From: a virus | IMG/VR virus record: IMGVR_UViG_3300021963_000138 | Span: 1 to 61,432 of that record | Length of the DNA stretch: 61,432 bases | Direction: 5' to 3' (one strand) | Part shown: positions 9,777 to 60,266 of the stretch, piece after piece | Layout of the letters: every line of letters begins with the position of its first letter | How positions within the stretch are numbered: position 1 is the first letter of the stretch | Made by a program: the position numbers and the translations under genes | Notes under the pieces: generated by a model | The model's database searches: none | What the model saw: only the letters and a program-made list of their open reading frames with translations | Told to the model about the DNA's origin: nothing

Positions 9777-9802
9777 TTAATTTAGACCTTGAAAACTGCG
9801 CA

Positions 9803-9810
9803 TATAAATA
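9803..9810 (+). promoter_or_regulatory. Late promoter, exact TATAAATA
   Basis: A perfect match to the T4 late promoter, 33 bases before the gp26 start. It lies within a 67-base divergent gap and is followed by a Shine-Dalgarno-like GGAG ahead of the ATG at 9844. Confidence 0.75.
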
Positions 9811-9825
9811 TACGACTAGATAAAG

Positions 9826-9833
9826 TATTTATC
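9826..9833 (-). promoter_or_regulatory. Putative late promoter (GATAAATA)
   Basis: The minus strand reads GATAAATA about 50 bases before the tape measure start. It fits the NATAAATA form described for cyanophage late promoters and is divergent to, and only 15 bases from, the plus-strand late promoter of gp26. Confidence 0.5.
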
Positions 9834-9843
9834 GGAGATAAAA

Positions 9844-10716
9844 ATGCCAGATCAATTCGAACAGAAGCAGCAAAAAAAGCCAATTAACAACCCTCTTGCC
9901 AATTATTTTAGGCAACCAAAATTATACATCCAACTGCCCAGCCATGGAAATTTTTACCCTGAGGGAGCACTGGATTCTAGTCAAAATGATGAATATGCAG
10001 TATTTGCAATGACTGCCAAAGATGAACTCATGTTCAAAACTCCTGATGCTCTTATGAATGGTCAAGCTACCGTTGAAGTTATTAGGAGTTGTGTTCCAGC
10101 AATCAAAGATCCATGGCTAATGCCCAGTATCGATATCGACGCGGTATTGATTGCAATTAGAATTGCATCATACGGTGAGTCAATGGAAGTTAATAGCAGT
10201 TGTCCAGAGTGTGGACATCACAATGAATACAATCTAGATCTTCTGTCATTTTTAGATAAGTCTAACGGCTTTACATATAAAGATACTGTATCAGTTGGGC
10301 AATTAACTATTAAATTACGTCCTTATAACTATAAAGAATTAACTAAGGCAGCAATAAAAACATTTGAACAACAAAAATTAATTTCTATTGTTACCAATGA
10401 AGATCTTTCCGAAGAAGATAAAATTGCCAAGTTTGGAGAAAGTTTTGTTAACCTAACAAGATTAACTGTCGATGTTGTTGTTAATTGCATCGAAAGTGTT
10501 GAAACTCCAGACGGTATTGTTTCCGATAAAGAAATGATTAGAGAGTTTATGGAAAATACTTCTAGTGAAATTTTTAACTTAGTTAATGATCAAGTTAAAG
10601 AAATGAAAGATCTAATGGCTTTAAAGGCTCACGACGTCGAATGTCAAGAGTGCAGTCATAAATTTACTGTTGAGGTTGCTATGGATCAAACAAATTTTTT
10701 CGTAGTAGGATCTTAA
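9844..10716 (+). CDS. 26: Tail assembly chaperone / baseplate hub assembly protein gp26
   Basis: A 290-residue protein of the gp26 type found in T4-like cyanophages, where it is annotated as a hub assembly factor. The N terminus contains NPLANYFRQPKLYIQLPS and GNFYPEG. A four-Cys zinc-ribbon-like pair is visible: CPECGH near residue 121 and CQECSH near 267. The middle is acidic and helical. The end of the gene carries A-AAT-TTT-TTC, a -1 slippery sequence, 15 bases before the stop, and the -1 frame then stays open for 75 codons. It is therefore probably the unshifted product of a G/GT-type chaperone pair serving the neighbouring tape measure. Confidence 0.82.
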   Translation: MPDQFEQKQQKKPINNPLANYFRQPKLYIQLPSHGNFYPEGALDSSQNDEYAVFAMTAKDELMFKTPDALMNGQATVEVIRSCVPAIKDPWLMPSIDIDAVLIAIRIASYGESMEVNSSCPECGHHNEYNLDLLSFLDKSNGFTYKDTVSVGQLTIKLRPYNYKELTKAAIKTFEQQKLISIVTNEDLSEEDKIAKFGESFVNLTRLTVDVVVNCIESVETPDGIVSDKEMIREFMENTSSEIFNLVNDQVKEMKDLMALKAHDVECQECSHKFTVEVAMDQTNFFVVGS

Positions 10717-17489: not shown

Positions 17490-18356
17490 TCAATCCCAAT
17501 CACCGCCATCTACTGGAGTTGTGCTGACCGGACCATAACTAGCACCGCCTTTGCCTGCGGCATTCTGTCTAGTCCACGACGGGTTCATTCCGTTAATTTC
17601 TAAAATATCATCGCGGATATTTTGATTACGTTTTTCGATATTAATGATTCTAACAAATGAATTTGTAACAGCAGCAGTATAATAAGCAAAAGGATTATCA
17701 CTTTTGCTCTCATCAAATTGAAGTCCAATTTGTGTTAACTGTAAAATAGCCTGTCCACGCATTTCGTCGTTATATGTATAACCACGAACGTTTCCTCTAG
17801 TTGCATATCTTTCACATAATTTTAAAAACATACGAGCTAGATTGTTAGTCATTTGTCCGTGCTCTTTGTTAAACGATCCAGTGTCTAACGGACCCTTCCA
17901 ATGACTCTTGCCCACACATATAAGATTGTTATTGTCGTCAAACTTCCAATGTTGGAAAGGAGGAAAGTTTACTTTGTCATGACTATCTGCGGTATTCTTT
18001 AAAGTCTTTTTACGACCAGGTGCAAGCGGAATATGCTCAAAGGTCATGACTCTAAAAACAACATCAGTTTTTTTAATAGTCTTATAATCAACTTCGAACT
18101 CTTTTGCTGGAATTTTCTTTCCGCCAGACTGTGCAATTTCGTGAGCCTTTTTACCCATTTTTATTGCTCGATTGCGTTTTGCATCTGCAATTGTTCTAAT
18201 ATTAATCTTAGATACATTTGGAACTATTAAATCGTAATCTCCGTATTCGGGATCAGTGTACGAACAATAGGTGTTTTTACTTAGATGAATTTCTTTCAGT
18301 AAATCCTTGTTGGTAAGATACTTGATCTTGGGAGGTTGTGAGGGCATTATTGTCAT
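17490..18356 (-). CDS. 55: Late transcription sigma factor gp55
   Basis: The phage sigma factor that redirects host RNA polymerase to late promoters. The 288 residues exceed T4 gp55 (185) because of a longer basic N-terminal part. Residues about 165-255 carry the sigma region-2-like helices: NNLARMFLKLCERYATR, DEMRGQAILQLTQIGL, NPFAYYTAAVTNSFVR. The C terminus ends in GGDWD without an obvious hydrophobic clamp-binding tail like T4's. Start may be the first ATG (GGAG 12 bases upstream) or codon 4. Proximity to gp47/gp46 is the T4 arrangement. It explains the TATAAATA-type octamers before many genes here. Confidence 0.9.
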   Translation of the reverse strand: MTIMPSQPPKIKYLTNKDLLKEIHLSKNTYCSYTDPEYGDYDLIVPNVSKINIRTIADAKRNRAIKMGKKAHEIAQSGGKKIPAKEFEVDYKTIKKTDVVFRVMTFEHIPLAPGRKKTLKNTADSHDKVNFPPFQHWKFDDNNNLICVGKSHWKGPLDTGSFNKEHGQMTNNLARMFLKLCERYATRGNVRGYTYNDEMRGQAILQLTQIGLQFDESKSDNPFAYYTAAVTNSFVRIINIEKRNQNIRDDILEINGMNPSWTRQNAAGKGGASYGPVSTTPVDGGDWD

Positions 18357-40000: not shown

Positions 40001-41740
40001 CTTGGCGGAGTCGGCTTATTAGATTATCAGGAATTTGTTGCAGACGGCACAACTAATCTATTCTTAACAAAAGCTGTTTACGATCAAACATCAATAGTTT
40101 TAGTAACGGTTGATGGTATAGCCATAGATGTGGGATTTGTTAATAGTTCAGATTTTATTGATACTAAAAACAGAACAATGATACAGTTCGGTTTAACGCC
40201 CTCATTTAGACAGGTTGTAAAAATTATTTGTTTCAGCGCAGAAGAGGGTGCAGATTCGGTTAACTCTTCATTTATTAGAGTTAATCAACATACGGTACCG
40301 TTTGATGGAAGTACAAGAGCTATTGATTTAGATAACTTTGTAAATTTGGAACAAGCATCAGAAACTGCTTCTATATTAGTAAACATTAACGGAAATTATC
40401 TACAAGGATTAGATACTACCTATATCGAATATGATGGCACTAATAACGAAATAACAGTAGGCGTTGATCCGGCAGAAACAATCGGTACAATCACTTCCGG
40501 AAATGTTAGGGTGTATATTAACAATATCCGACAACAGTTTGTTATTGATTTTACCTATAACGGAAACAACAATTTAATCAGCATACCTGTCTCAAATTTA
40601 GAGTTAGGTGATGTGATTAGAATAGAAACTGATGTTAGATCAAAATATTCAATTGTTGGTAATTCTGTTGTAATAGATGACAGCGTTCAACTAGCAATCA
40701 ATGACAATATACAGATAACATGGTTTAGTCAGTATCCTACAATGAATATTATTTCAGACGAATATACCGGCGGCAAACTACAATATAGATTGCCGAGAGA
40801 TCCGTTAGATATTAATTATGTTTGGGTTTATAAAAACGGAGTACGTTTAACTAAGGATGCAGATTATAGTTTATCACAGTCTTCAATTATATATCTAACT
40901 GAAAAATCAACAAGTTCTGACGTTATTAAAACTGTACAATTTAGTAATATAATTTATTCCAGCAATAGAGCGTTTGAAATCTTTAAAGATATGTTAAACA
41001 ACTATCATTACAAGCGATATTCTAGAGATGTAGCAGTTAAGTTAGCTAAAGATTTAAATTATTTTGATACTTCAATGGAAGTATTAAATGCCAATAAATT
41101 ATCAACTCCTATTTTTAACAGAAAAATTCCAGGAGTGGTGATTGTTAATAATGAAAGAATTGAATATTTTGAAAAGAATGGAAACGTTCTATCTCAATTG
41201 AGAAGAGGTAGTCTAGGTACAGGTATTGCTGAATTGCATCCTGCTAACAGTTTTGTGGTAGATGTTGGATCTACAGAAACTTTACCGTACACCGAAAATC
41301 AAGAAAAGTCTAATTTTATCAGCGATGGCAGTACATTATTAATCGGACCTTTAGAATTTACTCCAACAAAATCTAATAGAAATAATTGGTACAAAGAATC
41401 GATTCCGGACAGTTATGGCCCTTGCGATGAAATTGAAGTATTTGTGGGCGGAAAACGCCTCCGCAAAAATCCTATAGATGTTTATTCGGAAGCAAACGGA
41501 GCTAGCAGTCCTAGTTCTGATGTTGTGCAAGAAGCTGAATTTTCAGTAGATGGAACGTCGACTTATGTACGATTAACAGAACGAGTACCTGCAGGCACTA
41601 GAATAACAATTATTAGAAAATTAGGAAAAATTTGGTATGAGAAAAGTGATTTTGCAGCCAGTAAAGGCATTACGCTGTTGTCTAACAACACGCCTATTGC
41701 TAGTTTCATTGCTGTAAAGACCACTGAGCTGCCCGAATAA
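28004..41740 (+). CDS. Giant 4578-residue virion protein with FG-GAP propeller and CBM-like modules
   Basis: A single uninterrupted gene of 13.7 kb at the place of gp7-gp10 baseplate genes in T4. The N terminus (FFPDSQLPIRKTIDLLPQIF) resembles large structural proteins of marine T4-like phages. About six 45-residue modules with the pattern Y-x-G-x-x-V-x-Y-x-G-x-x-W...W are seen near residues 219, 1466, 1728, 2219, 2367 and 2484; they resemble CBM5/12 chitin-binding modules. Six FG-GAP-like blades (such as FGFSLTMSRDGRLLVVGAPN) lie near 2187, 2308, 2453, 2582, 2642 and 2719. Two GSGY-type Gly-rich modules lie near 3160 and 3510. It is probably a baseplate wedge or large fibre with glycan binding. 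No catalytic motif was recognised. Confidence 0.8.
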   Translation: MADKFFPDSQLPIRKTIDLLPQIFQTEANSKFLAGALDPLVQPGVLEKKVGYLGRRYGKTYKSSEVYLDTDQTLRSRYQLEPGVVVEKDGKIEQFYDYLDFKNQLKFFNNTEERDDLITAQEHYTWAPPIDWDKFVNYREYYWVPDGPPPIKILGQAQNIISTYRVGLGAGSVYIFTPDGLTNNPTLTLYRGQTYKFQVNVPGNPLLFRTTIDTGTLLYNPDFQYSIGQLVVFDGKLWKAKTNITTGDGSTIDENTDDWEFVDFTAASSSALNYTKGLTNAGIENGTITFEVPLNAPDVLYYQSFTDPNRFGRIIITNVEENTKIDVEKEIISKTTYTSSNGITLSNGMIVYFGGNVFPEKYSGKINNNKWVVEGVGERITLTNMASLIVSTTFSDTAPEILFDNGGFDTQPFDDASAYPGKKDYITINRSSLDANPWSRYNRWFHRAVLDYAHTLNNSNFDASETSRAKRPIIEFKSNIQLFNHGAVAKDAVDYVDDFTTDAFSVIEGSTGYIVDGEYLFNGARLLITNDTDALANNQIYIVNFITHNNIKQISLTRESTVDTQAGDGVLIRRGVKNKGVMYHFNGVDWVKSQLKTSVNQTPLFDLFDNNEVSFGDVETYPVSSFIGTPILSYKIGSGPTDTELGFSVSYLNIDNVGDIQFNFNLDTDSFNYKLDNANYSKEIATGYLKFNNDDTFTNAWNTLDSNYVQPIIDSVDIVEPTNEITTTMVDWKLLADSDIRKILVYLNGVHVRSGFTRTEGTFVFDKQFAVGDTVAIKLFANIDPDTGYYEIPLGLEKNPLNEKIKTFTLGQAADHISTGLELSEDFSGIFPGLNNLRDISGYQTLTRRFLKHSSPSPLSIALLCNKENNIIKSIQYAKKSYTDFKNSFIALAYEIFYNQTANDFVDSILEEISRTQDASRPFAGSDMIGSGAYTGITYTVEDVGIKTFALSEKFDLQTLSSRAVYVYFNNQQLLVNRDYEFNSTFGFVNLMIDLVEGDVIQIREYASTAINFIPPTPTKLGLYKKYTPRKFLDDTYVEPKEVIQGHDGSITIAYGDFRDDVLLELETRIYNNIKQEYNESVFDIDRVLGGYYGNSLYGKPALDKIISSEFLKWISGTNIDYVNNVFFDSENSFTYTYSNMVDPTGTQNLPGYWREVYRWFYDTDRPHTHPWEMLGFSEMPVWWEGEYGPSPYTSNNLILWEDLRDGIIRQGERAGTRDRYKRPSIMSHIPVDGDGKLLSPLGSGLAGNFSLINNQGAFKIGDNAPVEAAWRKSSEWPFAIISALALLKPFEFITDNFNKSFIATNKLGQTINLKTNLFSTLSDFVYENTVNAPVSGLVVYITNYLKSTTASTSKLEDVVSNINVKLSNRISGFVDQQQQKYILDSKNPKSTSSSVFVPPENYDIIFNVSAPIFNLAYSGVILEKVNAGWKISGYDNSTPLFYYYQPTDSQSDPLISVGGLSENFLDWTENTFYGNGVICRFKDKFYRCLSSHTSSTEFSEGTNGLSIWKQLPSLPLTGAVEAFRRRNFNKLRLRTLSYGSILNSIQQVVDFLLGYQEYLKSVGFIFDGYDTASSTSFDWYTSAKEFMFWSKHNWAENSLLTLSPSATYIKIKFAIGVADSILDSFYDYQVLKNDGNPLQPRFINVNRDFQEITVSTANTTDGIYFLRMHFVLKEHVVVFDDKTVFNDVIYDKPTGYRQERIKARGFRTVDWDGDYTSPGFLFDNVNIAVWQPFTDYKLGDIVSYKSYNWTSKYNQLGSVEFQDAAWSKLDSTPSKSLIPNFDYKINQFSDYYEVNTDGVGSSQRDLARHAIGYQQREYLQNIAEDEISQFRIYQGFIREKGTANAIVKVFDKLSRTQDDSVVLKEEWAFKIGEFGGTTQIDEFEFEIKKDDLVINPQPILLTYSTNSSVVLDQYLRINSSKFTTAPTPFTTDLNRTSYYDGASRSAGYVNTNHVDFIVKTLDDIVNLNIADVYENAHIWITFYNNEWTVLRYNQEVALRVESLVKTESNVEITLNQIHNFSVGDVVGLKYIDNLTGFFKITATTNKTITVITTSTNEPEIVDSTSATVGIFTIARKSTYQELDNQQAALLNLSSKLWIDNNGSDHWEVIEKTKQYVTYELSEYGITTPIGTGTSVVYIDNLKQIATGIPGSGYVMIYTTKTSGEVIGLKQIVPPPDGFETAVAGSFGKVLAVSPDYKWLAVGSPNASGVKSAYQGELNPSRSYLAGEITLYQGKLWEAIDNIDVGDGSSINFNSQDWKPATIVDANPAARGDGFTDQGMISLYKYSQGQWEIAYSFVSPRQAAYEEFGSAITIGVSGTTYYMAVSAPGSLCDPSIGASTGKGRIYLYQFNGTTWSHLENTKYLGLYQPSPLAVYPAGSIVWSNGSLWEALYDNTGDGSSLSLESNDWKKLDPISTQCSLPTNIAIDDDGSTLAEGLLSPTQLAELVKDGDQFGFSLTMSRDGRLLVVGAPNSDGQYFANYRGDWHAYQEYTEGDVVKYQNGYHRLTDATTSTITSLGQYPDEGLPWLNVGDSASPSTGKIYIYERDANNLYSLIQTITADSLSDINDTANSGIIGSGDQFGFAIDIDASGTTIVASSPLADINKQNQGAAYVFKYDADSTGPQFRLKQKLQSYEYFTNEYFGSSISISASTERIVVGAKNAGYSILAFFNDGTTFDRRRTSFSSSRGFPGQVYVYERKDQGYFLVEKLEADLVSGESFGYSIDCTSSVVVVGSPTYQVEGVAVGMVRLFKKSSETNSFNIISQEIPLVDVELLQNIELYDNVNNRKIADLDVVDGFKLKILGVAEQEISFKTVYDPAIYMIGTDDQVVDESQPWFEKNVGKIWWDLSTVKFINYEQDDFAYRIGNWNRQAEGSSIDIYEWVESVLLPSEWSLLADTVEGLAEGISGQPKFADNTVYNTKILYNPNTGLETGTLYYYWVSSKTILPTNNSIRRISAAAIEGFIDNPIGSGIPFIGILGTDKFLAYNLTAIIGTDTALVNVEYTKNKKQLTPIHREYQLLTSGVADSLPSEYLEKKWIDSLVGSDEAGNAVPDPKLPVKKQQGLSFRPRQSMFVNRDKALKIAIDNINSVLITRPFADTIDFSNLNRLDPIPNEVLNQYDLSVDTLIDLDQVGTVKVRQAEFTANIINGEIDTIDIKDAGFGYRTVPYIEIQGDGFGAKATITLNAQGKVNSINLISKGRKYTTATIKIRPFSVLVRSDSTLFGFWSVYAWDQQRRIFYRSKSQGYDTTIYWQFVDWWHSDYSINSKIIKEINNIYQEPTLELSVGDLIRVKEYGNGGWVVLEKTAQGAGDLLDNYNLVGRQNGTMQIKDTLYNRLINSLGYDNVGSYDAALYDLQPTKELRIILQAAKENIFVDDLRVEWNNLFFSSIKYAFSEQPYVDWAFKTSFLNAIHNVGDLEQKANYKNDNLESFQSYIEEVKPYRTSIREYTSRYTKTDSSNSAVSDFDLPPAYSVRDGAILPVNQYYNRFDEYPWKSWFDNNGYSIVAIKIADAGADYRTPPAVLITGNGTGATAQAFISNGRVSGIKVITSGSGYTQTPTVSLVGGNGASVNVARAVPILGETKVRSFDLTIKFDRTNKIGTYENFEYSQTFVATGFSAVFDLNYAPSRDKGKITVIKNDQLVISSEYEISLYISTVDSYDLLKGKLKFFANPNLGDVIVINYEKNVELFNSIDRIQKSYQPVSGMKGNNLNQLMTGIDFGGVQVQGTTFDVTGGWDALPWFTDSWDSVESSNDFYYVADGSTTFVVLPYTPENNQPISVYIKRLGDQRPIRIDDPNYTPSWDSSVATNPHAEMPTFIGDGSTNIIEIHRYLSTNSGDTLIFRKLDSDGSVVISDVNLLDTRISGGSLSNIGGAYVTAAGLTPEEIVIDGEKFVSPDQVPAPEENIPGQVLDSLSIKVFNKTNPGATPIQNTVVIGDGVKTRFDIGLTIFEASSVMVYVNKIKQEYIGDSTINYVIDFVENKIEFNDAPAAGDVVEIIAIGLGGVGLLDYQEFVADGTTNLFLTKAVYDQTSIVLVTVDGIAIDVGFVNSSDFIDTKNRTMIQFGLTPSFRQVVKIICFSAEEGADSVNSSFIRVNQHTVPFDGSTRAIDLDNFVNLEQASETASILVNINGNYLQGLDTTYIEYDGTNNEITVGVDPAETIGTITSGNVRVYINNIRQQFVIDFTYNGNNNLISIPVSNLELGDVIRIETDVRSKYSIVGNSVVIDDSVQLAINDNIQITWFSQYPTMNIISDEYTGGKLQYRLPRDPLDINYVWVYKNGVRLTKDADYSLSQSSIIYLTEKSTSSDVIKTVQFSNIIYSSNRAFEIFKDMLNNYHYKRYSRDVAVKLAKDLNYFDTSMEVLNANKLSTPIFNRKIPGVVIVNNERIEYFEKNGNVLSQLRRGSLGTGIAELHPANSFVVDVGSTETLPYTENQEKSNFISDGSTLLIGPLEFTPTKSNRNNWYKESIPDSYGPCDEIEVFVGGKRLRKNPIDVYSEANGASSPSSDVVQEAEFSVDGTSTYVRLTERVPAGTRITIIRKLGKIWYEKSDFAASKGITLLSNNTPIASFIAVKTTELPE

Positions 41741-41743
41741 ATA
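41736..41743 (+). promoter_or_regulatory. Putative late promoter (AATAAATA)
   Basis: AATAAATA overlaps the stop of the giant gene. Transcription would start close to 41750, so the in-frame ATG at 41751 would be nearly leaderless. This favours the second ATG at 41775 as the real start of the next gene. Confidence 0.55.
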
Positions 41744-41774
41744 CACTATCATGAATAATCAAGAAGAAACCAAT

Positions 41775-48198: not shown

Positions 48199-48206
48199 GA
48201 TAAATA
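48199..48206 (+). promoter_or_regulatory. Putative late promoter (GATAAATA)
   Basis: GATAAATA lies 23 bases before the fourth fibre gene. It fits NATAAATA and is followed by a GGAG Shine-Dalgarno. Confidence 0.6.
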
Positions 48207-49992: not shown

Positions 49993-50901
49993 ATGGCAAT
50001 CGGTGATTTCATTTCCGCAACGGACTACAATACAATTAGAACTAAAATTATCAATGTTATGAGCACTGGCTCTGGAAATTTTGGTTATGGTCAAACAACA
50101 TTTAGTTCTTTAGTTGCAGCCGGAAATACTGTGACAAAAACACAGTGGGATGCGCTTCGATTTGACATCTACAATGCAATCCTTCATCAAACAGGATCAG
50201 CTGCTTCTTTAGTTCAGGTAGCAGTAGGAGACGTTATTAGATATGGTGCAAGCAATCCAAATACACAATATGATACTGTTGCTAATACTGCAATTACTAA
50301 CCGTTTTGATTTAGGTACAGGACAATTTGTAACAGAAGCTATTGACAGTAAGTCTTTCTCTTCATCATGGTATCAATCTATCAGTGCTACGGCATCAGTT
50401 AGCTTTGCTACAGCAGAACAGGCTAGATTCTTTTTTAATGCAGGCGGCAAAATACGATTTGCTAGTTCAAGATCGGGCGGATCTGGGGTTGCACAAAATA
50501 CTTCTTGGAGTAATTTGTTAAGCAGTGCCGGCACACAATCCTTTGTTGGCGGTCCGTCGGGTATTAATTTCTTTTCATTGACTAGCTCTTTTCAAACATT
50601 TTCTGAAACAGCAGGAACTAGTGCGTACACCAATAACAAATGGCGTTTAGAAGCGTCATGCAACGTTGCTAACAATGCATCAGGAACTGCTAATGTAGTC
50701 AATTTTAGAATAACATGGATAGACGCATATGTTGATCCAGGTCCGGCAACCCCAGAAAATTTACCTCCTGGGGATCTAGTAGACGGTACATTTACTCTTA
50801 CAGTTGATCAAGTTCGCCCATCGGGATTTCTGCAACCCAGCGGTACATTTACAACTGTTGGACCAACTTCTACTTCAGTAAGCGCAATCTCGGGTTCATA
50901 A
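49993..50901 (+). CDS. Putative structural protein following the fibres
   Basis: A 302-residue protein beginning MAIGDFISATDYNTIRTKI. The N-terminal 70 residues (NTIRTKIINVMSTG, GNTVTKTQWDALRFDIYNAI) look helical. Residues about 110-245 are beta-rich and Ser/Thr/Gly-rich (KIRFASSRSGGSG, WRLEASCNVANNASG), and the tail is Pro/Thr/Ser-rich. Such composition fits a short fibre or decoration protein. It is co-linear with the fibre genes and has no late promoter of its own. The regulatory hairpin of the next operon begins six bases after its stop. Function is not known. Confidence 0.6.
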   Translation: MAIGDFISATDYNTIRTKIINVMSTGSGNFGYGQTTFSSLVAAGNTVTKTQWDALRFDIYNAILHQTGSAASLVQVAVGDVIRYGASNPNTQYDTVANTAITNRFDLGTGQFVTEAIDSKSFSSSWYQSISATASVSFATAEQARFFFNAGGKIRFASSRSGGSGVAQNTSWSNLLSSAGTQSFVGGPSGINFFSLTSSFQTFSETAGTSAYTNNKWRLEASCNVANNASGTANVVNFRITWIDAYVDPGPATPENLPPGDLVDGTFTLTVDQVRPSGFLQPSGTFTTVGPTSTSVSAISGS

Positions 50902-50907
50902 ATGTTA

Positions 50908-50955
50908 ATCTCCTAAAAAACATCACATAAATAATGTGCGTGTTTTATAGGAGAT
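50908..50955 (+). promoter_or_regulatory. Shine-Dalgarno-sequestering hairpin of about 20 bp
   Basis: ATCTCCTA (50908-50915) pairs perfectly with TAGGAGAT (50948-50955), which contains the ribosome binding site of the next gene. After one A-A mismatch the stem continues 50917-50922 with 50941-50946, then a G-U pair and one bulge, then 50924-50928 with 50934-50938, leaving a 5-base loop. The late promoter overlaps the loop and the last inner pairs. Readthrough RNA would fold and hide the ribosome site; late RNA starting near 50940 lacks the 5' arm. Confidence 0.8.
50926..50933 (+). promoter_or_regulatory. Late promoter (CATAAATA) at the hairpin apex
   Basis: A NATAAATA match 26 bases before the ATG at 50959, located at the apex of the hairpin. 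Transcripts from it would begin inside the 3' arm and leave the ribosome site (TAGGAG) free. Confidence 0.65.
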
Positions 50956-50958
50956 ATT

Positions 50959-51309
50959 ATGGACGACCGTCTAAAAGCAGCCTTGGATTTTTCAAATTAT
51001 AGGCAAACTCTAGCAATTCAAAGAAAAACCCTAAAAGAAAAAATTGAGGGCAAGTTGACCTATGGCCACTCCGGCGGAATATTTAAAATTGACAGAACAT
51101 TATTAGTCTTTGTTCAAATGTTAATTGATCAGGGCAGAACTGAAAACATTCCCTTAATCGATCAAAATGAAAATCCTGTCCTTATTGCTAATCTACTAGA
51201 ATTTCGAGATGAAATACTAGATAGATATTTTACATCTACCTATGAGTATCACAAAGAATACCAAAAGATTAAATCTAGTAGAACTGTAGAAAAATTATTG
51301 AATGTATGA
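50959..51309 (+). CDS. Conserved phage protein, first gene of glycosyltransferase operon
   Basis: A 116-residue, mainly helical protein. Visible stretches are LDFSNYRQTLAIQRKTLKEK and YGHSGGIFKIDRTLLVFVQM, and the C-terminal half is charged. No enzyme motif or membrane segment is seen. Its translation should be restricted to late transcripts by the upstream hairpin, which contains its TAGGAG site. Its stop overlaps the next start (ATGA). Similar small proteins accompany fibre genes in marine T4-like phages; an assembly role is possible but not shown. Confidence 0.6.
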   Translation: MDDRLKAALDFSNYRQTLAIQRKTLKEKIEGKLTYGHSGGIFKIDRTLLVFVQMLIDQGRTENIPLIDQNENPVLIANLLEFRDEILDRYFTSTYEYHKEYQKIKSSRTVEKLLNV

Positions 51310-52166
51310 ATAAAGGCATCTTAATTTTTGCTCACAACGGTCCTGAAGTAGATTATGGTACCATGAGTATAATTGCTGGCGGTCTAGCAAAAAAACATTT
51401 AGGATTACCAGTAAGTCTAGTTACAGATAAATGGACAATTGCTTGGCTTAAAGAATCTAATATGTATGCAAAGGCCGAGTCAGTGTTTGATAAAATTATT
51501 GAAATTGAAAAGCCTCGAACAAAAAATACAAGAAAACTACATGATGGATTTCACAGTCAAGTAATTCCCTTTGTTAACTCGAATAGATTTTCAGTCTGGG
51601 ATATTAGCCCCTATGATCAAACTTTATTAATCGATAGCGATTATTTAATTTTTTCTGATCGATTAAACGAGTATTGGAATGTAGATAGTAGTGTAATGTT
51701 AGGACATTCAATGAATGACATTACTGGAGAACGCAGTGGTATATTAGATCAACGAGTTAGCGAAACTGGGGTTCACATGTTTTGGGCCACTACTGTAATG
51801 TTTACTAAAAACGAAGAAAGTCGTTTCTTTTTTAAATTAGTAGACTTTGTCAAAGACAACTATGTATACTATGCTGATTTGTTTAGATTTAATCCTAAAC
51901 AATATAGAAATGACATTGCATTTAGTGTTGCTAAACATATAATGAACGGATTTGAAACAGAGTTCATTTATACATTACCTCCTATACTAACAGTTTTTGA
52001 CAAAGACATGTTAGAGTCTGTAGAAGATACTAAACTAACTTTTTTAATTGACAAACCTCTTAATTGCGGTGAGTTTTGGGCTGCTACTACAAATGGCCTA
52101 GATGTACACATTATGAATAAACAAAGTATAATGAGACACAAAGAAAAATTACTGGAGTTAATATGA
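51306..52166 (+). CDS. Glycosyltransferase-like protein (GT-A, DxD-type)
   Basis: A 286-residue protein with the layout of a GT-A transferase. The N-terminal strand GILIFAHNGPEVDYGTMSI is followed by a helix-rich nucleotide-binding half. The metal-binding DxD equivalent is DQTLLIDSDYLIF near residue 112. Downstream GVHMFWATTVMFTKNEESR resembles the acceptor side of GT8-like enzymes. Sugar donor and acceptor cannot be read. Phage sugar transferases next to fibre genes may decorate virion proteins, phage DNA or host surface glycans. Start and stop both overlap neighbours by ATGA. Confidence 0.68.
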   Translation: MNKGILIFAHNGPEVDYGTMSIIAGGLAKKHLGLPVSLVTDKWTIAWLKESNMYAKAESVFDKIIEIEKPRTKNTRKLHDGFHSQVIPFVNSNRFSVWDISPYDQTLLIDSDYLIFSDRLNEYWNVDSSVMLGHSMNDITGERSGILDQRVSETGVHMFWATTVMFTKNEESRFFFKLVDFVKDNYVYYADLFRFNPKQYRNDIAFSVAKHIMNGFETEFIYTLPPILTVFDKDMLESVEDTKLTFLIDKPLNCGEFWAATTNGLDVHIMNKQSIMRHKEKLLELI

Positions 52167-53005
52167 ACTTTGGTTATCTGATCGTAGTCGCTTCGAATCC
52201 AGATGTAGATTATCTCAAACTGGCCTATGCATTAGCGTTGAGTATTAAAAATACTCAGAAACCCGGATATGATAAAGTTGCACTAGTAATAGACAATCCG
52301 TCATTAGTTGAAAGTTTAAAAAGTCCTTGGGTGTTTGATCATGTTATTCATTGGGATAAAGAAACATATTGGGATGGCCGAAGCTATATGGATCAACTGA
52401 GTCCTTTTGATAATACAGTTTGCCTTGATGCCGACATGTTATTCTTAAGAGATCATAGTCATTGGATTGATTACTTTGTAGAAAATTCTGAACTATATGT
52501 TCCTGCTAGAGCATTTACCTACAGAGGCGAAGTAGTTACTAACGATTACTATCGTAAAACATTTACAAAAAATAATTTACCTAATCTGTACTCGATGTTT
52601 ACATTTTTTAAGAAAGATTCTGCTTTTGCAAAAGAATTTTTTGATCTAGGTAGGTACATTATAAAAAACCCTATAGAGTTTAGCAATTTGTATTTGAACA
52701 AACAAAAACCAAAAGTTGTCGGTACAGATGAGGCGTTTGCATTAAGTGCTAAAATTTTAGATATCGATGGCGAAATTAGTTATGATTTAGAGTTTCCGAA
52801 TATTGTTCACATGAAACCTATGATACAAAATTGGCCGTGGACCGCAGATCGAGTTACTGAACATGCAGGATTCTATTTCAGTACTTCCGGAAATTTAAAA
52901 ATTGGAAATTATCAGCAGCACGGCATCGTACACTATGTTGAAAAAGATTTAATAAATGACGAAATTGTCAGCATGTTAGAGGAGATCGCATGGGACAAGA
53001 ACTAA
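52163..53005 (+). CDS. Glycosyltransferase-like protein, related to preceding gene
   Basis: A 280-residue GT-A-like protein starting MNFGYLIVVASNPDVDYLKL, parallel in layout to the previous gene. The DxD motif is in DNTVCLDADMLFLRDHSHW near residue 92. Later landmarks are LYSMFTFFKKDS, VVGTDEAFALSAKI (a frequent acceptor-side Asp/Glu) and a His-rich end (QQHGIVHYVEKD). It probably transfers a sugar in a metal-dependent manner; donor unknown. The two genes look like an old duplication. The end overlaps the next gene by 16 bases. Confidence 0.7.
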   Translation: MNFGYLIVVASNPDVDYLKLAYALALSIKNTQKPGYDKVALVIDNPSLVESLKSPWVFDHVIHWDKETYWDGRSYMDQLSPFDNTVCLDADMLFLRDHSHWIDYFVENSELYVPARAFTYRGEVVTNDYYRKTFTKNNLPNLYSMFTFFKKDSAFAKEFFDLGRYIIKNPIEFSNLYLNKQKPKVVGTDEAFALSAKILDIDGEISYDLEFPNIVHMKPMIQNWPWTADRVTEHAGFYFSTSGNLKIGNYQQHGIVHYVEKDLINDEIVSMLEEIAWDKN

Positions 53006-53580
53006 TGGATTTTGATGAATGGATTCAATTACCAGTTAATCAGACCGTTGAATATTATGCAACGTTTAAAGACGACGGTTCTTTAATAGGAGTTTATCCT
53101 TCTCATACAGTTGAAACCGTTATTAATAAAATAAAAATTGATGATGAAATAGCAACGGCGATTTCTAACGGCACTGAAAATTTATTTTCTTATAAAGTTG
53201 ATGTACCGACCCAAAAGCTTCTTAAGATAAACAAATTTTCAATGCACAATTTGATAAAAATTGATGATGTGTTGCATAGAATTATAGATAAAAAGTGGTC
53301 AAACATTGATGATCCAGATATCACAATTGCTTATAATGGTAGCGGAATATTAACATTTTCTATGAATCCACGATATGCTAACAATGTTATCTGGGACGGT
53401 GATACTGTTATGATTTTCTTAATAACTGAATACAATGATCCTAATGCATTAATCGAAATGATTAGTATCAGAGCAGGGGATATTACAGAAAATGCAAAAT
53501 CGTTTAATGTATTATTACCTAAAAAATTTAGTATCTATACAAGAAGAATTTTTGACAAATACGTATTTGAGGCAGAATGA
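52990..53580 (+). CDS. Unrecognised protein inside the glycosyltransferase operon
   Basis: A 196-residue protein of mixed alpha/beta appearance, without a motif I recognise. Stretches such as DEWIQLPVNQTVEYYATFKD and ITIAYNGSGILTFSMNPRY suggest a beta-sandwich. The ATG at 52990 has a clear GAGGAG site and overlaps the preceding gene; an alternative ATG at 53005 forms a TAATG junction. The end overlaps the next start by ATGA. Its place between transferases suggests a partner or substrate protein, which is speculation. Confidence 0.55.
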   Translation: MGQELMDFDEWIQLPVNQTVEYYATFKDDGSLIGVYPSHTVETVINKIKIDDEIATAISNGTENLFSYKVDVPTQKLLKINKFSMHNLIKIDDVLHRIIDKKWSNIDDPDITIAYNGSGILTFSMNPRYANNVIWDGDTVMIFLITEYNDPNALIEMISIRAGDITENAKSFNVLLPKKFSIYTRRIFDKYVFEAE

Positions 53581-54488
53581 AAACAGTAGAATTAGACATT
53601 GTCTTTTTGAGTTATGACGAACCTAATGCAGATAAACACTATGCTGATCTGTGTAATAAATTACCTTGGGCAAAACGTGTTCACGGTGTAAAAGGCAGTG
53701 ATGCTGCCCATAAACGTGCTGCTGAATTATCAGAAACTGAATGGGTTATTACTGTTGATGCCGATAACATCGTTGACCCTAAGTTTTTCAATTTAGAAAT
53801 TGATACAAGTAATCCTAAAATACAAGTGTATAGTTGGCTAGGAAGAAATAAATTAAACGGATTACTTTACGGAAACGGTGGCCTAAAGATTTGGCGTAAG
53901 GATTTTATCCTTAACATGAAAACACACGAAGCCAGTGATAGCGATCGTGCTCAAGTTGATTTTTGTTGGGAAGATGGATATCGTCAATTTAAAGAATGTT
54001 ATAGCGAAACTGTTATTACCGGAAGTCCTTTTCAAGCATGGCGAGCAGGATTCCGTGAAGGTGTTAAAATGACCTTGCTTGACGGAGTTAAAGTTCCTCC
54101 TCAAGAAATCGGCGAACGGATTTGGTGGCATAACTTACACAGATTACGCATGTGGGCCACTGTTGGAGCTCATGAAGAACACGGACTATACGCTGTATAT
54201 GGTGCAAGATTAGGCACTTGGTTAGCAAATTGTACAGATTGGAATTATGTAGATGTTCGAGATTTTGAAATACTAAAAAACATTTATCACGATTACGGTA
54301 AGCCGTTTGAAGATGACAACGGCAGAGGCTTAGTTGAAGAGATTAAATCTATTGGAAGTAAAATTAAATTAGAATTGGGGTTTGACTATCCTTATCTAGA
54401 TAGCCAACAAAGCAAGTATACCTTAGATTTGTACGAAGAAACTATTAAATTAACAAATACATATATGAGGGCAACCGATGGTCTATGA
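53577..54488 (+). CDS. Glycosyltransferase-like protein with intact DAD motif
   Basis: A 303-residue protein of glycosyltransferase family-2-like form. The N terminus is ELDIVFLSYDEPNADKHY, followed by AKRVHGVKGSDAAHKRAAEL (nucleotide-binding half) and the metal site VITVDADNIVDPKFF near residue 60. NGLLYGNGGLKIWRKDF and TGSPFQAWRAGFREGVKM follow. The same sequence order recurs at the C terminus of the next gene, so the two are paralogues. Its end overlaps the next start by 11 bases. Sugar and acceptor are unknown. Confidence 0.7.
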   Translation: MKTVELDIVFLSYDEPNADKHYADLCNKLPWAKRVHGVKGSDAAHKRAAELSETEWVITVDADNIVDPKFFNLEIDTSNPKIQVYSWLGRNKLNGLLYGNGGLKIWRKDFILNMKTHEASDSDRAQVDFCWEDGYRQFKECYSETVITGSPFQAWRAGFREGVKMTLLDGVKVPPQEIGERIWWHNLHRLRMWATVGAHEEHGLYAVYGARLGTWLANCTDWNYVDVRDFEILKNIYHDYGKPFEDDNGRGLVEEIKSIGSKIKLELGFDYPYLDSQQSKYTLDLYEETIKLTNTYMRATDGL

Positions 54489-56484
54489 TGTTTTTTATGT
54501 AAGCAAAAATATTATTGATGAGCAAGATTGGAAACAATTTCGTTCTAGATTTCCATCTGCTCAAAAAATTGAGAATGTAAAATCTTTTAATGACATTAGA
54601 AAGAAAGCATTTACAAAGTTATTCTGGGTAGTTTGGGACGATTTAGAAATTGTTGAAAATTTTGATTTTAGCTATCGGGTTTCAGAATGGGATCAAAATT
54701 ATATCCACGTTTGGTTAAATGCCACTTCATATGACGGAGTTGTCTTGTTTGGTAAAAATTCTGAACCAACTCAAAAAGAATTTGAACACAGATTTTTTAC
54801 TAACAAAAAAGAAATTTCTGTTGTAGCAAGTATTCCTAAGCATTACGATCAATTTGTTATTTCTAATTATAATGATTATTTAAACGCATTAGATACAACA
54901 CGCACTGAGATGTTTTGGGGCATCTGGAACAACGTCGAAGTTATTAATCAAAAAATATTTAACACCTATTTTAGTCATCACGCCAGACAAAGCAGAATTG
55001 AAAATCATGTTTTTAAAAATGTATGCAATGATCGAGAATCGTTTGTTAACGGAGTTGTTCTGTTCAGTAAAAATACTGTTGTGTCTCAAAAAGAGATTGA
55101 CTATAAATTTTTAATCAATAAAAAAGAATACGACATTATAGCAAGTCAAAATAGATATCCTAGATATATAATTTCTACCTACGACGAATATTTAAATATT
55201 TGTAAAACAGAAACACAATCGTTGTTCTGGTGCGTTTGGCCGGATATTGATATTACTGATAACACAATTTTTGATTTTTACTTTGATCCGTTTAACGGCG
55301 AATATGATTATGATAGAACAGTGAATCATATGTTTAAAAATCAAGTGGGCAGTGAAGAATCTTTCATCAGTGGTCTTGCATTATGCTCCCCAAGTAAACC
55401 TGTATCTAAGAAAGAAATTGAACATAGATTTTTCATGGACAAAAAAGAACACGATCGAGTAGTAAGTAGTGCTAGGCCGTATGAAAAATTTGTTATCAAT
55501 ACTTTCAAAGACTACGAATATGCTATGGCCGCCACCACAACAGATATGTTCTGGATGATTCCGCCAGAAGTTGAACCGTTAGATGATTTTAAATTTGATC
55601 TATATTTTCCCTATCAGAACAATTACGAACGTGGAATAAATCACGTTTTTAAAAATAAGGATGTAGAAGAAAACAAATACAACGGCATTATGCTGTTGTC
55701 AAAAAAAGCATCAGTGTCTTTGAGAGAAATTGAATATAGATATTTGATTGAAAAGAAAGAATATGACATTGTAGCAAGTGAACTTAAATTATATGACATC
55801 GTGTTTATCAGCTATAATGAACCTAATGCTGACGAAAACTATAAAACATTGTGTGATAGATTTCCTAGAGCAAAGAGAGTGCATGGTATAAAAGGTATTC
55901 ATCAAGCACACATAGCTGCCGCAAAATTAGCAACTACTCCTATGTTTTGGGTAGTTGACGGTGATGCTGTTATAGAAGATAATTTTAAATTTGATCTATT
56001 ATTACACAAACATGATACTGACATTGTGCATGTGTGGCTAAGCCGCAATCCTATAAACGGATTAACATATGGTTATGGTGGCGTTAAGCTATTGCCTAAG
56101 CAATTGACAGAAAATATGGACTTGTCTAATACCAAGATTGATATGACAATGTCAATTAGTAATAAATTTAAAGTTGTACAAGAAGTTAGTAATATTACAG
56201 CATTCAATACAGATCCTTTTAGCACATGGAAATCAGCATTTAGAGAATGTGTAAAGTTAGCCAGTAGACCCGTTAACGCTGACTATCAAGAAGAAACTGA
56301 AGATAGATTAATTACTTGGTGTAATATTGGTACCGAAAAACTTCACGGAGAATACAGTATAGCAGGAGCTCGAGCTGGGAAACAATACGGGTTAGCACAC
56401 ATTGCTGATTCTGTACAACTAGCAAAAATTAATGATTTTGAATGGCTGCTAGAGCAATTTCAAAATCCATCGCCTCTTGCCTGA
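54478..56484 (+). CDS. Multi-repeat glycosyltransferase: four degenerate repeats plus one intact domain
   Basis: A 668-residue protein. Residues 435-668 are a family-2-like transferase closely matching the preceding gene (YDIVFISYNEPNADENY, AKRVHGIKGIHQAH, metal site WVVDGDAVIEDNF). Residues 1-434 are four tandem repeats of about 105-118 residues (about 1-118, 119-223, 224-330, 331-434). Each has an (M/L)FW strand, an (I/V)F-type strand, a short LF/LLSK turn and a KKE..(I/V)(V/I)AS end. The repeats align with the catalytic domain itself, but the DGD is replaced by WDD, WNN, WPD and PPE, so they look non-catalytic. They may bind glycans or serve as spacers. The gene end overlaps the convergent radical SAM gene by 25 bases. 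Confidence 0.7.
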   Translation: MVYDVFYVSKNIIDEQDWKQFRSRFPSAQKIENVKSFNDIRKKAFTKLFWVVWDDLEIVENFDFSYRVSEWDQNYIHVWLNATSYDGVVLFGKNSEPTQKEFEHRFFTNKKEISVVASIPKHYDQFVISNYNDYLNALDTTRTEMFWGIWNNVEVINQKIFNTYFSHHARQSRIENHVFKNVCNDRESFVNGVVLFSKNTVVSQKEIDYKFLINKKEYDIIASQNRYPRYIISTYDEYLNICKTETQSLFWCVWPDIDITDNTIFDFYFDPFNGEYDYDRTVNHMFKNQVGSEESFISGLALCSPSKPVSKKEIEHRFFMDKKEHDRVVSSARPYEKFVINTFKDYEYAMAATTTDMFWMIPPEVEPLDDFKFDLYFPYQNNYERGINHVFKNKDVEENKYNGIMLLSKKASVSLREIEYRYLIEKKEYDIVASELKLYDIVFISYNEPNADENYKTLCDRFPRAKRVHGIKGIHQAHIAAAKLATTPMFWVVDGDAVIEDNFKFDLLLHKHDTDIVHVWLSRNPINGLTYGYGGVKLLPKQLTENMDLSNTKIDMTMSISNKFKVVQEVSNITAFNTDPFSTWKSAFRECVKLASRPVNADYQEETEDRLITWCNIGTEKLHGEYSIAGARAGKQYGLAHIADSVQLAKINDFEWLLEQFQNPSPLA

Positions 56485-57719
56485 TGCTCTTTAAAATTAT
56501 TTTTATTTGGTCTAGAGTTCCCTTTGTGAGTCCAGATCCTATCAATAGGACTATCTTCTCCACAAGTTTTAGCACAATACATTAGTTTATCATCGTCAGA
56601 CTTATTCCACGAATTTGCATAGACTAAATTAAGATGATTCTTTTCAATAATTTCTTCTAAAGAATATTTGTTTAGATTAAAATAGTCTTTACCGTAGTCT
56701 TCTATTTTTTTCTTAAGTTGTAAATTTTCAACAATGTTATGTGTAGTTCCGGACATAGTTCCTATATAACAGCAGGGAAAAATTTGTCCCGTACTACTGA
56801 CATAGATTTCTCTTAATCCGCCCCAAGTTTCAGATTTACAAGAAATAGTTTTGTTATTAGACTGCGTATAGTCAATGGGTTTTTCTTGAAAAGTTTTTCC
56901 GTCATACACTTTGATTGCTTCATTATGCGGATCAATAATTTCTTTTTTATAGATAGTTATAATTGAAGTATTGACTTCTGGTAATAGATCAGTAAGAACT
57001 CTATTTTTTGTATAGTTTCTATTGTCTAAATCTTCGGGAGGTTCTAACCAGTACTGAAAATCACCTTCTTTGTTTAATGCTGCTACTCGAACTAGATCAT
57101 CGTTAAAATATTCAAACCCTAATGCTTTCTTTGGTGCAAAATTATTAAATCCTAATTCTTCTGATAATTTTTTAGCTTCCTGTATTTGGTGTTCGTTATG
57201 TTTGAAAATTAAATAATCCCAAGCAGCATTTCCGCCAGCACCAATATAGGCCTTTACATTACGCATTAATGTTGTCCAGTCTACGTTTCTTCTATACAAG
57301 TGATTGGTATCTTCTAATCCGTCGATTGAAAAAATAATGCGTAGGCGTTTATCAAACTTTTTAGATACGGCTCCGAGGTGTGCCCAATTTGATTCGTTTC
57401 TAATGCCACCGTTGGTGTTAAATGTGATATAGATTTTTTCGTTGTTTTCGTAAATATAGTCAACTATTTTAAAAACATCTTTGGCCATCATTGGATCGCC
57501 GACTGTACCGCAGAACATAAAATGATTTAGTTTTGCAATAAGCTCAGGTTTAAACCATTCTTTAAATTGATCAATGGTAATTTGTGCAAGTTCTAAGTCA
57601 GGTCTAACAATCTCACTGCCTTGATAGTATCGAGGGCACATAGGGCATGCCGCATTACAATAGCTAGAAAGTTCAACGTGAATTTGTGCTAATAATTCTT
57701 TATTCCAAAAGTTGTTCAT
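56460..57719 (-). CDS. Radical SAM protein with C-terminal SPASM-like cysteines
   Basis: A 419-residue radical SAM enzyme. CNAACPMC (Cys21, 25, 28) binds the catalytic 4Fe-4S cluster, right after the first strand (IHVELSSYC). GTVGDPMM takes the place of the usual GGEP strand, and FNTNGG and IIFSIDGL follow. The C-terminal part has a SPASM-like set: a Cys in ISCKSETWGG, GQIFPCCYIG (Cys pair near 315) and YCAKTCGE near 387, likely holding auxiliary clusters. Such enzymes modify peptides, proteins or sugars; the substrate is unknown. It is the last gene of the radical SAM operon and overlaps the previous gene by ATGA. Confidence 0.85.
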   Translation of the reverse strand: MNNFWNKELLAQIHVELSSYCNAACPMCPRYYQGSEIVRPDLELAQITIDQFKEWFKPELIAKLNHFMFCGTVGDPMMAKDVFKIVDYIYENNEKIYITFNTNGGIRNESNWAHLGAVSKKFDKRLRIIFSIDGLEDTNHLYRRNVDWTTLMRNVKAYIGAGGNAAWDYLIFKHNEHQIQEAKKLSEELGFNNFAPKKALGFEYFNDDLVRVAALNKEGDFQYWLEPPEDLDNRNYTKNRVLTDLLPEVNTSIITIYKKEIIDPHNEAIKVYDGKTFQEKPIDYTQSNNKTISCKSETWGGLREIYVSSTGQIFPCCYIGTMSGTTHNIVENLQLKKKIEDYGKDYFNLNKYSLEEIIEKNHLNLVYANSWNKSDDDKLMYCAKTCGEDSPIDRIWTHKGNSRPNKNNFKEHQARGDGF

Positions 57720-58885
57720 TTGTAATTCCTAATCAACTCGCCGAATTCGGGAAAAGTTTTATAATAATCTTCTTTTCTAAACTCATCATGTACTGCTATT
57801 TCTTGTTTAAAGTTATCCCAACGCCATTGCTCAAATTTTCCATCTTTTACAAACTGTATAATTCCTGGTAATTGTCTCCAGACCGATTCGTAGGACTTAT
57901 CAATGGTTTCTAATTTTTTACAAATTTCTTCTTTAATAGAATCGGGAAATATTTGACTACAATAATAGTCCGGATAATGCACCAAATTTAAATAAACATT
58001 CCAGTCCTTTTGAAAGAATTCAACAACTTCAGGGATATAATATACGTTTAATGCACTTATAGTATGACAAACATCAAAGTATAAATTGGGCCTATCTTTA
58101 GACCATTCCTTAGCCTTCTGCATATTTGCATATACTTCGTCCCATTTTGCAGGATGTCTCATAAACTCAAATCTTTCACCAATACCGTCTATACTAAATC
58201 CTATACTCACAAATTTAAAATTTTCTAATAACGGAAGAAGCTCTTCAGGCCATTGAGTTCCGTTTGTATTATAGTGTAGGCTCATGTTTTTTGCCCACCC
58301 GTTCTTAACACAGGTTCTTATAAATTCCCATTGCTGTTTAATCAGCCAAGGCTCACCGCCGTAGAAATCCACAACTACAATGCCTTCTCCAATTTTATCT
58401 AGATTAGCCCATAAAGGGCTTTCTTTTTCCCAGCTGTCGTTATAATTTTTTGAATTAATTAAGAATGTTTTATAATCAGTTTTTACTTTATCAACTTTAG
58501 TTTCGTAAAATTCTTTAAGCCATTGACTGCTGCTATAGGGATGACAGGTACGACATTTGATATTACAAGTATTACCCATGTTAAGCTCTAGTGTTTTAAT
58601 ACCGTCGCCTTCTTTAAAATCAAACTTTTTATTATCTCTAATACGTTTGCTATCACGGCCCGCATCTTCTTCATTCCAGCATTTAGAACAACTGGGGTGC
58701 CTTTTTCCTTGACGAAAATATTCACGAACTTCGTTCATCCATGGCTCTGTCCATAAATCTTCTAGAGATTTATCTAATACTCTTCCTCGAGTTTGACCAT
58801 CTATCATGCAACAGTGCTTTACTGTGCCAGTAGAGTTAACGCTAAGATTATGTGATGCGTTAACGCAATAAAACTCATTTTCCAT
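57716..58885 (-). CDS. Radical SAM protein with N-terminal twitch/SPASM-like module
   Basis: A 389-residue enzyme. The core motif CNIKCRTC (Cys107, 111, 114) lies unusually far from the N terminus. GGEPW near residue 177, YNTNGTQW and IGFSIDGIGERF follow in normal order. Residues 1-75 hold five cysteines (7, 25, 26, 66, 69) in a G-x-V-x-x-CC...C-x-x-CW arrangement that resembles a SPASM/twitch module but sits before the core. The C terminus HDEFRKEDYYKTFPEFGEL is similar to that of the two upstream genes. It overlaps both neighbours (4 and 11 bases). Substrate unknown. Confidence 0.85.
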   Translation of the reverse strand: MENEFYCVNASHNLSVNSTGTVKHCCMIDGQTRGRVLDKSLEDLWTEPWMNEVREYFRQGKRHPSCSKCWNEEDAGRDSKRIRDNKKFDFKEGDGIKTLELNMGNTCNIKCRTCHPYSSSQWLKEFYETKVDKVKTDYKTFLINSKNYNDSWEKESPLWANLDKIGEGIVVVDFYGGEPWLIKQQWEFIRTCVKNGWAKNMSLHYNTNGTQWPEELLPLLENFKFVSIGFSIDGIGERFEFMRHPAKWDEVYANMQKAKEWSKDRPNLYFDVCHTISALNVYYIPEVVEFFQKDWNVYLNLVHYPDYYCSQIFPDSIKEEICKKLETIDKSYESVWRQLPGIIQFVKDGKFEQWRWDNFKQEIAVHDEFRKEDYYKTFPEFGELIRNYK

Positions 58886-60266
58886 AATTTAGATATTCCT
58901 GTTTGCACATTTCCATAAATTCGTGATACTCTGGAAATAGCGTGTAAAAGTCTGTAGAGTTTCGTTTATCAGTTTCGTTAAAGAAAACATAAAAATCTCT
59001 ACGACCCTTTTTAATTTTTTCTGGATCGACTGGATTCTGTCTCATATAGTCAACTACACGTTTAAAAACTTCATACTCGATTTCATTAAATCCGGTTTGA
59101 TTTCCATCTTTTATAAAGTTAGACTTGATAAATTCTAGATTGTCATCCATATACTTATTAAAACTTTCTGGCAGGATGTTTATCATCCAGTGCGGAGGTT
59201 CCTTTAAGTAAGGAGTGTCGAACTGAACACGCTGATGCCACGCTGTTCCTGGAAAGTCTTTTCTAAGTTCTAGGATCTTTTCTAATAGTGTTCTAAAATT
59301 TGCAACTGTAAGTACATTAAATGTAATCATAAAACTAATGTCTTGTTTTGGCAAATTATCTAGGTAGTAGCGCAGATTCTTTTCCCATAGAACAACATCT
59401 AAATTTGTTCTAATATATTCTGCCTGTGGACCCCAAGTATCAATACTAGTATATAATTTAAAACCTTTGATAGCTTTCTTTTCTAACAATACTTTAACAT
59501 GGTCTACTAATTTCTGTACCAAACGATGTGTAATGCCTAGATTGCTGTTAACATGGATTTCTAGATTAGGTTCCGGATCGTTTTCCAACATTTCTAACAA
59601 TTTAAATGTGTTAGGATTCATCAGCGGTTCACCGCCGGTAATTCTAAACACACGTAGATCTTTCTTTAGACTTGGCCACCATTCCCAGAAAGCATCTACA
59701 TAAGGATTAGGGTCGTCCTTGTTGAAGAAGTCGCTATGCTCTAAAAATTCAATACCATATTGGTTGTAAGTTAGATCGTAATTGCCGTGCCTTTTAATTT
59801 CTTCCATCCACGAACTAGATGCTTGTGGACAGCAATACCCGCAGCGGAAATTACAGCCGTTTCCAAAACTAACTTCTAGGTGTCTGGGATTCCAATTGGT
59901 TTCCCAGCCTTGTTTAATGATATCTTCGAAGGTATCACTTATGTAGTTAGAGCTGTGTTTCATGCGATCACTAATATGATCACCTTCTAGGTCTTCAATA
60001 TTCCAGCAGTAGTAGCACTCTTCTGGACGACCCCCTTCCATCATTAACTTACGCTGTAGTTTTTTCCATGGTGTATTATGTAATGCACTGGGATTGTCTT
60101 TTAATAGGTCTTTATCAATTTTATGAGGACGAGGGTGATAGCAACTATGATTGTCGCCCATATGGAGATATAGTGTTTCCATATTCCATTTTGCTAGACA
60201 AAATCCCTTGCCTACTGTGTTTAACTTATCACGTGTTTCGTGGATAATTTCTATATATTTTTTCAT
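58875..60266 (-). CDS. Radical SAM protein, twitch-type, paralogue of next upstream gene
   Basis: A 463-residue enzyme with CNFRCGYC at Cys138, 142 and 145, TGGEPLMNPNTFKLLEML near residue 222 and LYTSIDTWGPQAEYIR. The N-terminal 100 residues carry Cys23, 42, 84 and 87, ending in CYYCWNIEDLEG, which matches CSKCWNEEDAG in the downstream gene. The C terminus has DKRNSTDFYTLFPEYHEF. The block NPYVDAFWEWWPSLKKDL is nearly repeated in the gene upstream, so the two are recent paralogues. The substrate is unknown. ATGA overlap with the upstream gene. Confidence 0.85.
   Translation of the reverse strand: MKKYIEIIHETRDKLNTVGKGFCLAKWNMETLYLHMGDNHSCYHPRPHKIDKDLLKDNPSALHNTPWKKLQRKLMMEGGRPEECYYCWNIEDLEGDHISDRMKHSSNYISDTFEDIIKQGWETNWNPRHLEVSFGNGCNFRCGYCCPQASSSWMEEIKRHGNYDLTYNQYGIEFLEHSDFFNKDDPNPYVDAFWEWWPSLKKDLRVFRITGGEPLMNPNTFKLLEMLENDPEPNLEIHVNSNLGITHRLVQKLVDHVKVLLEKKAIKGFKLYTSIDTWGPQAEYIRTNLDVVLWEKNLRYYLDNLPKQDISFMITFNVLTVANFRTLLEKILELRKDFPGTAWHQRVQFDTPYLKEPPHWMINILPESFNKYMDDNLEFIKSNFIKDGNQTGFNEIEYEVFKRVVDYMRQNPVDPEKIKKGRRDFYVFFNETDKRNSTDFYTLFPEYHEFMEMCKQEYLNYGK

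Follow-up and report, generated by a model that had tools for sequence, protein, structure and literature searches.

The stretch of viral DNA analysed here (61,432 nucleotides, hereafter the window) carries on its plus strand a hairpin (50908-50955, ATCTCCTAAAAAACATCACATAAATAATGTGCGTGTTTTATAGGAGAT) between a run of virion genes and a conserved operon. The ∼ 32 kb upstream, 18438-50901 on the same strand, consists, to judge from family matches, of virion genes, and a single ORF of 4578 aa (28004-41740) lies there among the baseplate and fibre genes. The gene next to the hairpin (49993..50901, plus strand) is regarded as a fibre-like virion gene from its position after the fibre genes; family searches with its product gave no match of its own. 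Six nucleotides separate its stop codon from the hairpin, and the start codon of the first operon gene lies 3' of the hairpin at 50959.

The first operon gene (50959..51309, plus strand, as are all operon genes described here) is conserved and encodes a 116-aa protein modelled as helix-strand-strand-helix-strand-strand-helix (pLDDT 88), for which family searches returned no match. The following product (51306..52166) has a predicted GT-A fold (pLDDT 83) and is GT8-like: its structural matches are glycogenin, GlyE, UGGT and LgtC (E about 1e-5, TM about 0.45), and its best sequence match, a weak one, is also glycogenin. A putative second GT8-like glycosyltransferase (52163..53005) is proposed from the DxD-like motif LDADMLF; database searches lent this assignment no support. 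Next come a conserved operon gene (52990..53580), a putative GT2-like glycosyltransferase with weak GT2 matches below the cut-off (53577..54488) and a putative glycosyltransferase-like repeat protein identified by motif (54478..56484), which has no Pfam match. The first-pass annotation had described a glycosyltransferase operon. A conserved operon that holds at least one putative GT-A/GT8-like protein is indeed supported; nothing found makes its 116-aa first gene a glycosyltransferase. Since the 51306 product has the GT8-like fold, that of 53577 is sub-threshold and that of 52163 has the motif only, the label is fair but partly inferred. Wherever the contigs of relatives reach far enough, gene order is constant (49993-family gene, hairpin and promoter, 116-aa gene, homologues of 51306, 52163, 52990 and 53577), interrupted in one locus (L172) by a single inserted gene. 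Of three adjacent minus-strand genes that converge on the operon (56460-60266), two have matches to phage radical SAM families and the middle one (57716-58885) contains the motif CNIKCRTC.

In the minimum free energy structure of the region, the 5' arm (50908..50928) and the 3' arm (50934..50955) form 20 pairs in segments of 8 (50908-50915 with 50948-50955), 7 and 5, with one A.A mismatch after the 8-pair segment, one 1-nt bulge and the loop AAATA. The computed energy is -28.7 kcal/mol (z -5.5), and none of 200 dinucleotide shuffles was as stable; folding was performed throughout with an energy model at 37 °C, which may not be the temperature of the host. The ribosome site lies in the 3' arm, with TAGGAG at 50948-50953 and the Shine-Dalgarno (SD) sequence AGGAG at 50949..50953; the anti-SD (50910-50914) is part of the 5' arm. 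The octamer CATAAATA (50926..50933) occupies the tip, its CAT forming the top of the stem and AAATA the loop. A hairpin of ∼ 20 bp with TAGGAG in its 3' arm and this octamer at its apex is what the first-pass annotation had recorded, and both its coordinates and its description hold. A GC-rich stem with a U run was not found; AUUAUGG follows the stem, and the absence of the U run rules out an intrinsic terminator as the identity of the hairpin. No terminator-like site was found at 50901-50959, and the hairpin had no match to any Rfam family up to an E-value of 1.

The natural reading of CATAAATA is as a predicted T4-type late promoter. Each of the 99 distinct upstream regions from 271 related loci has TAAATA 29-37 nt ahead of the start codon. 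Among the genes of the window is one for a gp55-family late sigma factor (17490..18356, minus strand; phrog_12791, E 2.8e-81), whose closest cultured-phage versions, 44-49% identical, belong to PA5oct-type Pseudomonas phages and to Sinorhizobium phage Phosso. Elsewhere in the window, virion genes are preceded on the matching strand, at 13-50 nt, by ATAAATA or TTAAATA sites. The octamer CATAAATA occurs once in the window against 6.1 expected and TATAAATA once against 8.7; the late promoter octamer seems to have been purged from coding DNA. In T4, late RNA starts ∼ 6 nt past TAAATA, and from this spacing we infer a start at 50938..50940. Among the other late-promoter-like sites, ATAAATACACTATCATG at 41736-41751 places TAAATA 13 nt ahead of the start codon of the 41751 gene, whose late RNA from this site would be near leaderless; in a 353-kb relative (G001), ATAAATA likewise stands 14 nt ahead of ORFs at 76511, 250000 and 261125. 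At 9776-9844, late promoters diverge (TATAAATA on the plus strand, GATAAATA on the minus strand), each inside the leader of the other.

The promoter position has a direct consequence for the two RNAs that could reach the operon. The 5' arm is predicted to be carried only by RNA arriving from upstream. On RNA from the fibre-like gene, pairing of 50908-50928 with 50934-50955 would shut the AGGAG of the first operon gene inside the stem and so keep ribosomes from starting. A gp55-type polymerase would start RNA at the operon's own promoter, at about 50939, and because that promoter is the hairpin tip, the late RNA is predicted to lack the 5' arm and to be translated. Comparing the folds of readthrough and late RNA was a check proposed with the first description of the element; in the predictions, RNA begun at 50939 loses the hairpin (z +0.8), and the predicted cost of opening AGGAG is 13.0 kcal/mol on readthrough RNA versus 2.3 kcal/mol on late RNA. 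The corresponding medians for 45 representatives of the related loci are 7.6 versus 1.6. Sequestration of the SD on RNA from upstream is supported by these predictions and by covariation.

Loci containing the gene of 50959 were collected by scans of viral contigs, which yielded the 271 usable loci and their 99 distinct upstream regions; metagenome loci are partly redundant, and sets with one representative per identity group are meant to correct for this. Arms pairing at -12 kcal/mol or better were found in 68 of the 99 regions. Their letters vary widely yet pair, for example CTGATTAACAT/ATGTTAATCAG in L054 and AATGTAC/GTACATT in L069. Mean duplex energies were -14.4 kcal/mol for cognate arms, -9.2 for arms swapped between genes < 80% identical and -7.3 for a control segment further upstream. 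At every representative level (one per group at 95, 85, 75 or 70% identity; n = 71, 45, 27 and 18), all 20,000 permutations fell short of the cognate mean. On a tree of the loci built from three proteins, neighbours differ by pair changes on both sides of the stem: seven between L153 and L283, five between L180 and L182, two each between L125 and L130 and between L080 and L289, and one between the window and L004. Within the close clade, hairpin structure exceeds slid controls; covariation there is modest when the clade is taken alone, because its 3' arms hardly vary. G-U mispairs outnumber A.C mispairs in the stems (23:5 at the 85% level, 31:16 at the 95% level, 35:20 over all), as allowed by a sense RNA and not by a DNA palindrome. 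These comparisons point to a hairpin that many uncultivated relatives keep with new arm letters under selection as sense RNA. Conservation and covariation of the arms, together with the gp55-like sigma factor in the window, therefore support the originally proposed arrangement, a hairpin with a late promoter in it and a ribosome site hidden by it.

The hairpin is weak or absent, with promoter and gene order kept, in L055-L058, L066, L067/L070, L138, L233/L237/L243 and L291, and its presence changes state at least 12 times on the tree at a threshold that was the analyst's choice. Its weakness or absence in several clades implies that the lock is dispensable somewhere. In some loci of clades without the lock (L055-L058, L066, L067, L070, L138 and L298), a small hairpin surrounds the SD inside the late leader.

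A strong fold is peculiar to this promoter. The other late-promoter-like sites of the window have fold z-scores of -1.7 to +1.0, leaving 50926-50933 (z -5.3) as the only one with a strong fold. Of 93 late promoters belonging to neighbouring upstream genes on the same contigs, one has arms at -12 kcal/mol or better, and SD opening at other late promoters costs 2.1 on readthrough versus 1.2 on late RNA. The relative G001 has 38 ATAAATA sites ahead of ORFs, and a strong, conserved SD-burying hairpin over the promoter is found at the homologous site alone (1/38). Nothing comparable being seen at other late promoters, genome-wide use of the lock in the phage was rejected. A weaker hairpin over ATAAATA before a 68-aa ORF of the same relative (G001 307835, L101) was also discarded, as its homologues do not conserve it; one of these (L321) may have a different hairpin, the rest have none.

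Which RNA the hairpin silences depends on the upstream unit. The nearest upstream virion genes carry conserved late promoters; one is GATAAATA (48199..48206, plus strand), conserved in relatives, without a hairpin, and located in many of them 28 nt ahead of the 48229 gene. Throughout the relatives, the upstream neighbour of the hairpin belongs to one fibre-like family, that of 49993, and it often has a late promoter of its own. Because late virion genes with late promoters of their own lie upstream and no terminator was seen, the silenced RNA is most likely late readthrough. We therefore favour, with a probability of roughly 65%, a lock of the kind known from T4 e, soc and I-TevI, in which the promoter gates translation and the RNA kept silent is most likely late readthrough. 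As the late promoter would by itself set the timing, a more probable role for the hairpin is to prevent translation on that readthrough RNA or to couple it.

The first-pass annotation had instead taken the silenced RNA to be early readthrough, which would restrict the operon to the late phase. Under such a temporal lock, early or middle RNA reading into the operon would stay silent until late promoters fire. T4 e, soc, 49 and I-TevI share the anatomy, and both the RNA fold and the late promoter are present here. However, the ∼ 32 kb of same-strand DNA upstream holds virion genes with late promoters, and relatives have the same virion-type neighbour; this part of the original proposal is not supported, and we consider a temporal lock unlikely. 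Sigma-70-like sites in the region occur at chance level and carry no weight for or against early RNA. Slightly less probable still is translational coupling, by which a ribosome ending at 50901 would cover the anti-SD and free AGGAG, so that operon output from readthrough RNA would follow upstream translation. The 6-nt distance from the stop codon to the hairpin suits it, and the anti-SD starts at a median of 9 nt past the stop in 66 loci with paired SD, within the leading edge of the ribosome. But a ribosome at the stop reaches the outer pairs only and the remaining stem would re-close; the tight spacing may merely reflect compact intergenic DNA, and coupling has no need for a promoter at the hairpin tip.

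Two further readings give the palindrome a role apart from the ribosome site. RNase III substrates are close in size to a 20-pair stem, and the hairpin could be mainly a processing or stability element, either an RNase III site or a 3'-end protection of the upstream message; sense-RNA covariation would suit any RNA role. We judge this improbable, since the SD stays inside the stem despite varied promoter-to-start spacings and the loops and bulges of the stems vary among clades. Least credible of all is a DNA operator, in which a dimeric protein would bind the palindrome over the late promoter. The symmetry around the promoter is near perfect, and the I-TevI protein does bind at its own late promoter (PMC2988022). 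Conservation of the pairing and not of the arm sequence, together with the excess of G-U over A.C mispairs, makes such an operator most unlikely.

For the promoter-gated lock on late readthrough RNA, the probable lateness of the silenced RNA makes an insulator, standing between two late units, the better reading. Two RNAs identical in phase and sequence would differ in whether they can be translated solely by where each began, and, instead of or in addition to silencing the operon early, the lock would keep its dose separate from the fibre messages. We advance this proposal tentatively and a little below even odds: an insulator that makes operon dose independent, conserved in a large uncultivated T4-like group with its arms repeatedly rebuilt. 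If it is right, a glycosyltransferase operon that modifies virion or host would have a dose independent of upstream messages.

Late-promoter-in-hairpin locks of T4 are textbook examples, known for a handful of genes, mostly among close T-evens. Here one lock can be traced, with strong covariation, through ∼ 100 distinct sequences, from phages without a cultured relative that carries the operon genes (the 116-aa protein and two further operon proteins had no match in 50,697 cultured-phage records). Early RNA, the textbook rationale, seems not to account for it at this position. The homologous loci form a ready-made alignment from which to measure what selection preserves, and the locus offers a clear test of whether such a lock serves timing, dose or coupling.

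In T4 gene e, structure on the long RNA cuts lysozyme synthesis about 100-fold, and the same mechanism has been described for soc, 49, I-TevI, segB and mobE (PMC3014915, PMC2988022). In the known locks, a late gene shares its RNA with early and middle genes (PMC2988022); at the present locus, virion genes with late promoters appear to take the place of these. The element resembles T4 e, soc and 49 in that the SD lies in a helix on the long RNA, the late promoter lies in the DNA of the 5' arm and the late RNA, here by prediction, lacks the arm (PMC3014915). It differs from them in that their long RNA is early or middle and the upstream unit here consists of late virion genes, in that the head of a glycosyltransferase operon is controlled, and in that genes as little as about 65% identical share the lock. 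In I-TevI, I-TevII, I-TevIII, segB and Aeh1 mobE, the RNA from a late (or middle) promoter cannot form the SD-hiding hairpin (PMC2988022), as is predicted here, but these homing-endonuclease hairpins serve mobile genes within early or middle units, whereas the present one precedes a conserved operon whose position behind virion genes is fixed. The split ribosome sites of T4 genes 25 and 38 also have an RNA structure at a late gene start that is kept in close relatives (PMC3014915); there, the structure between SD and AUG aids initiation, whereas the structure predicted here would bury the SD.
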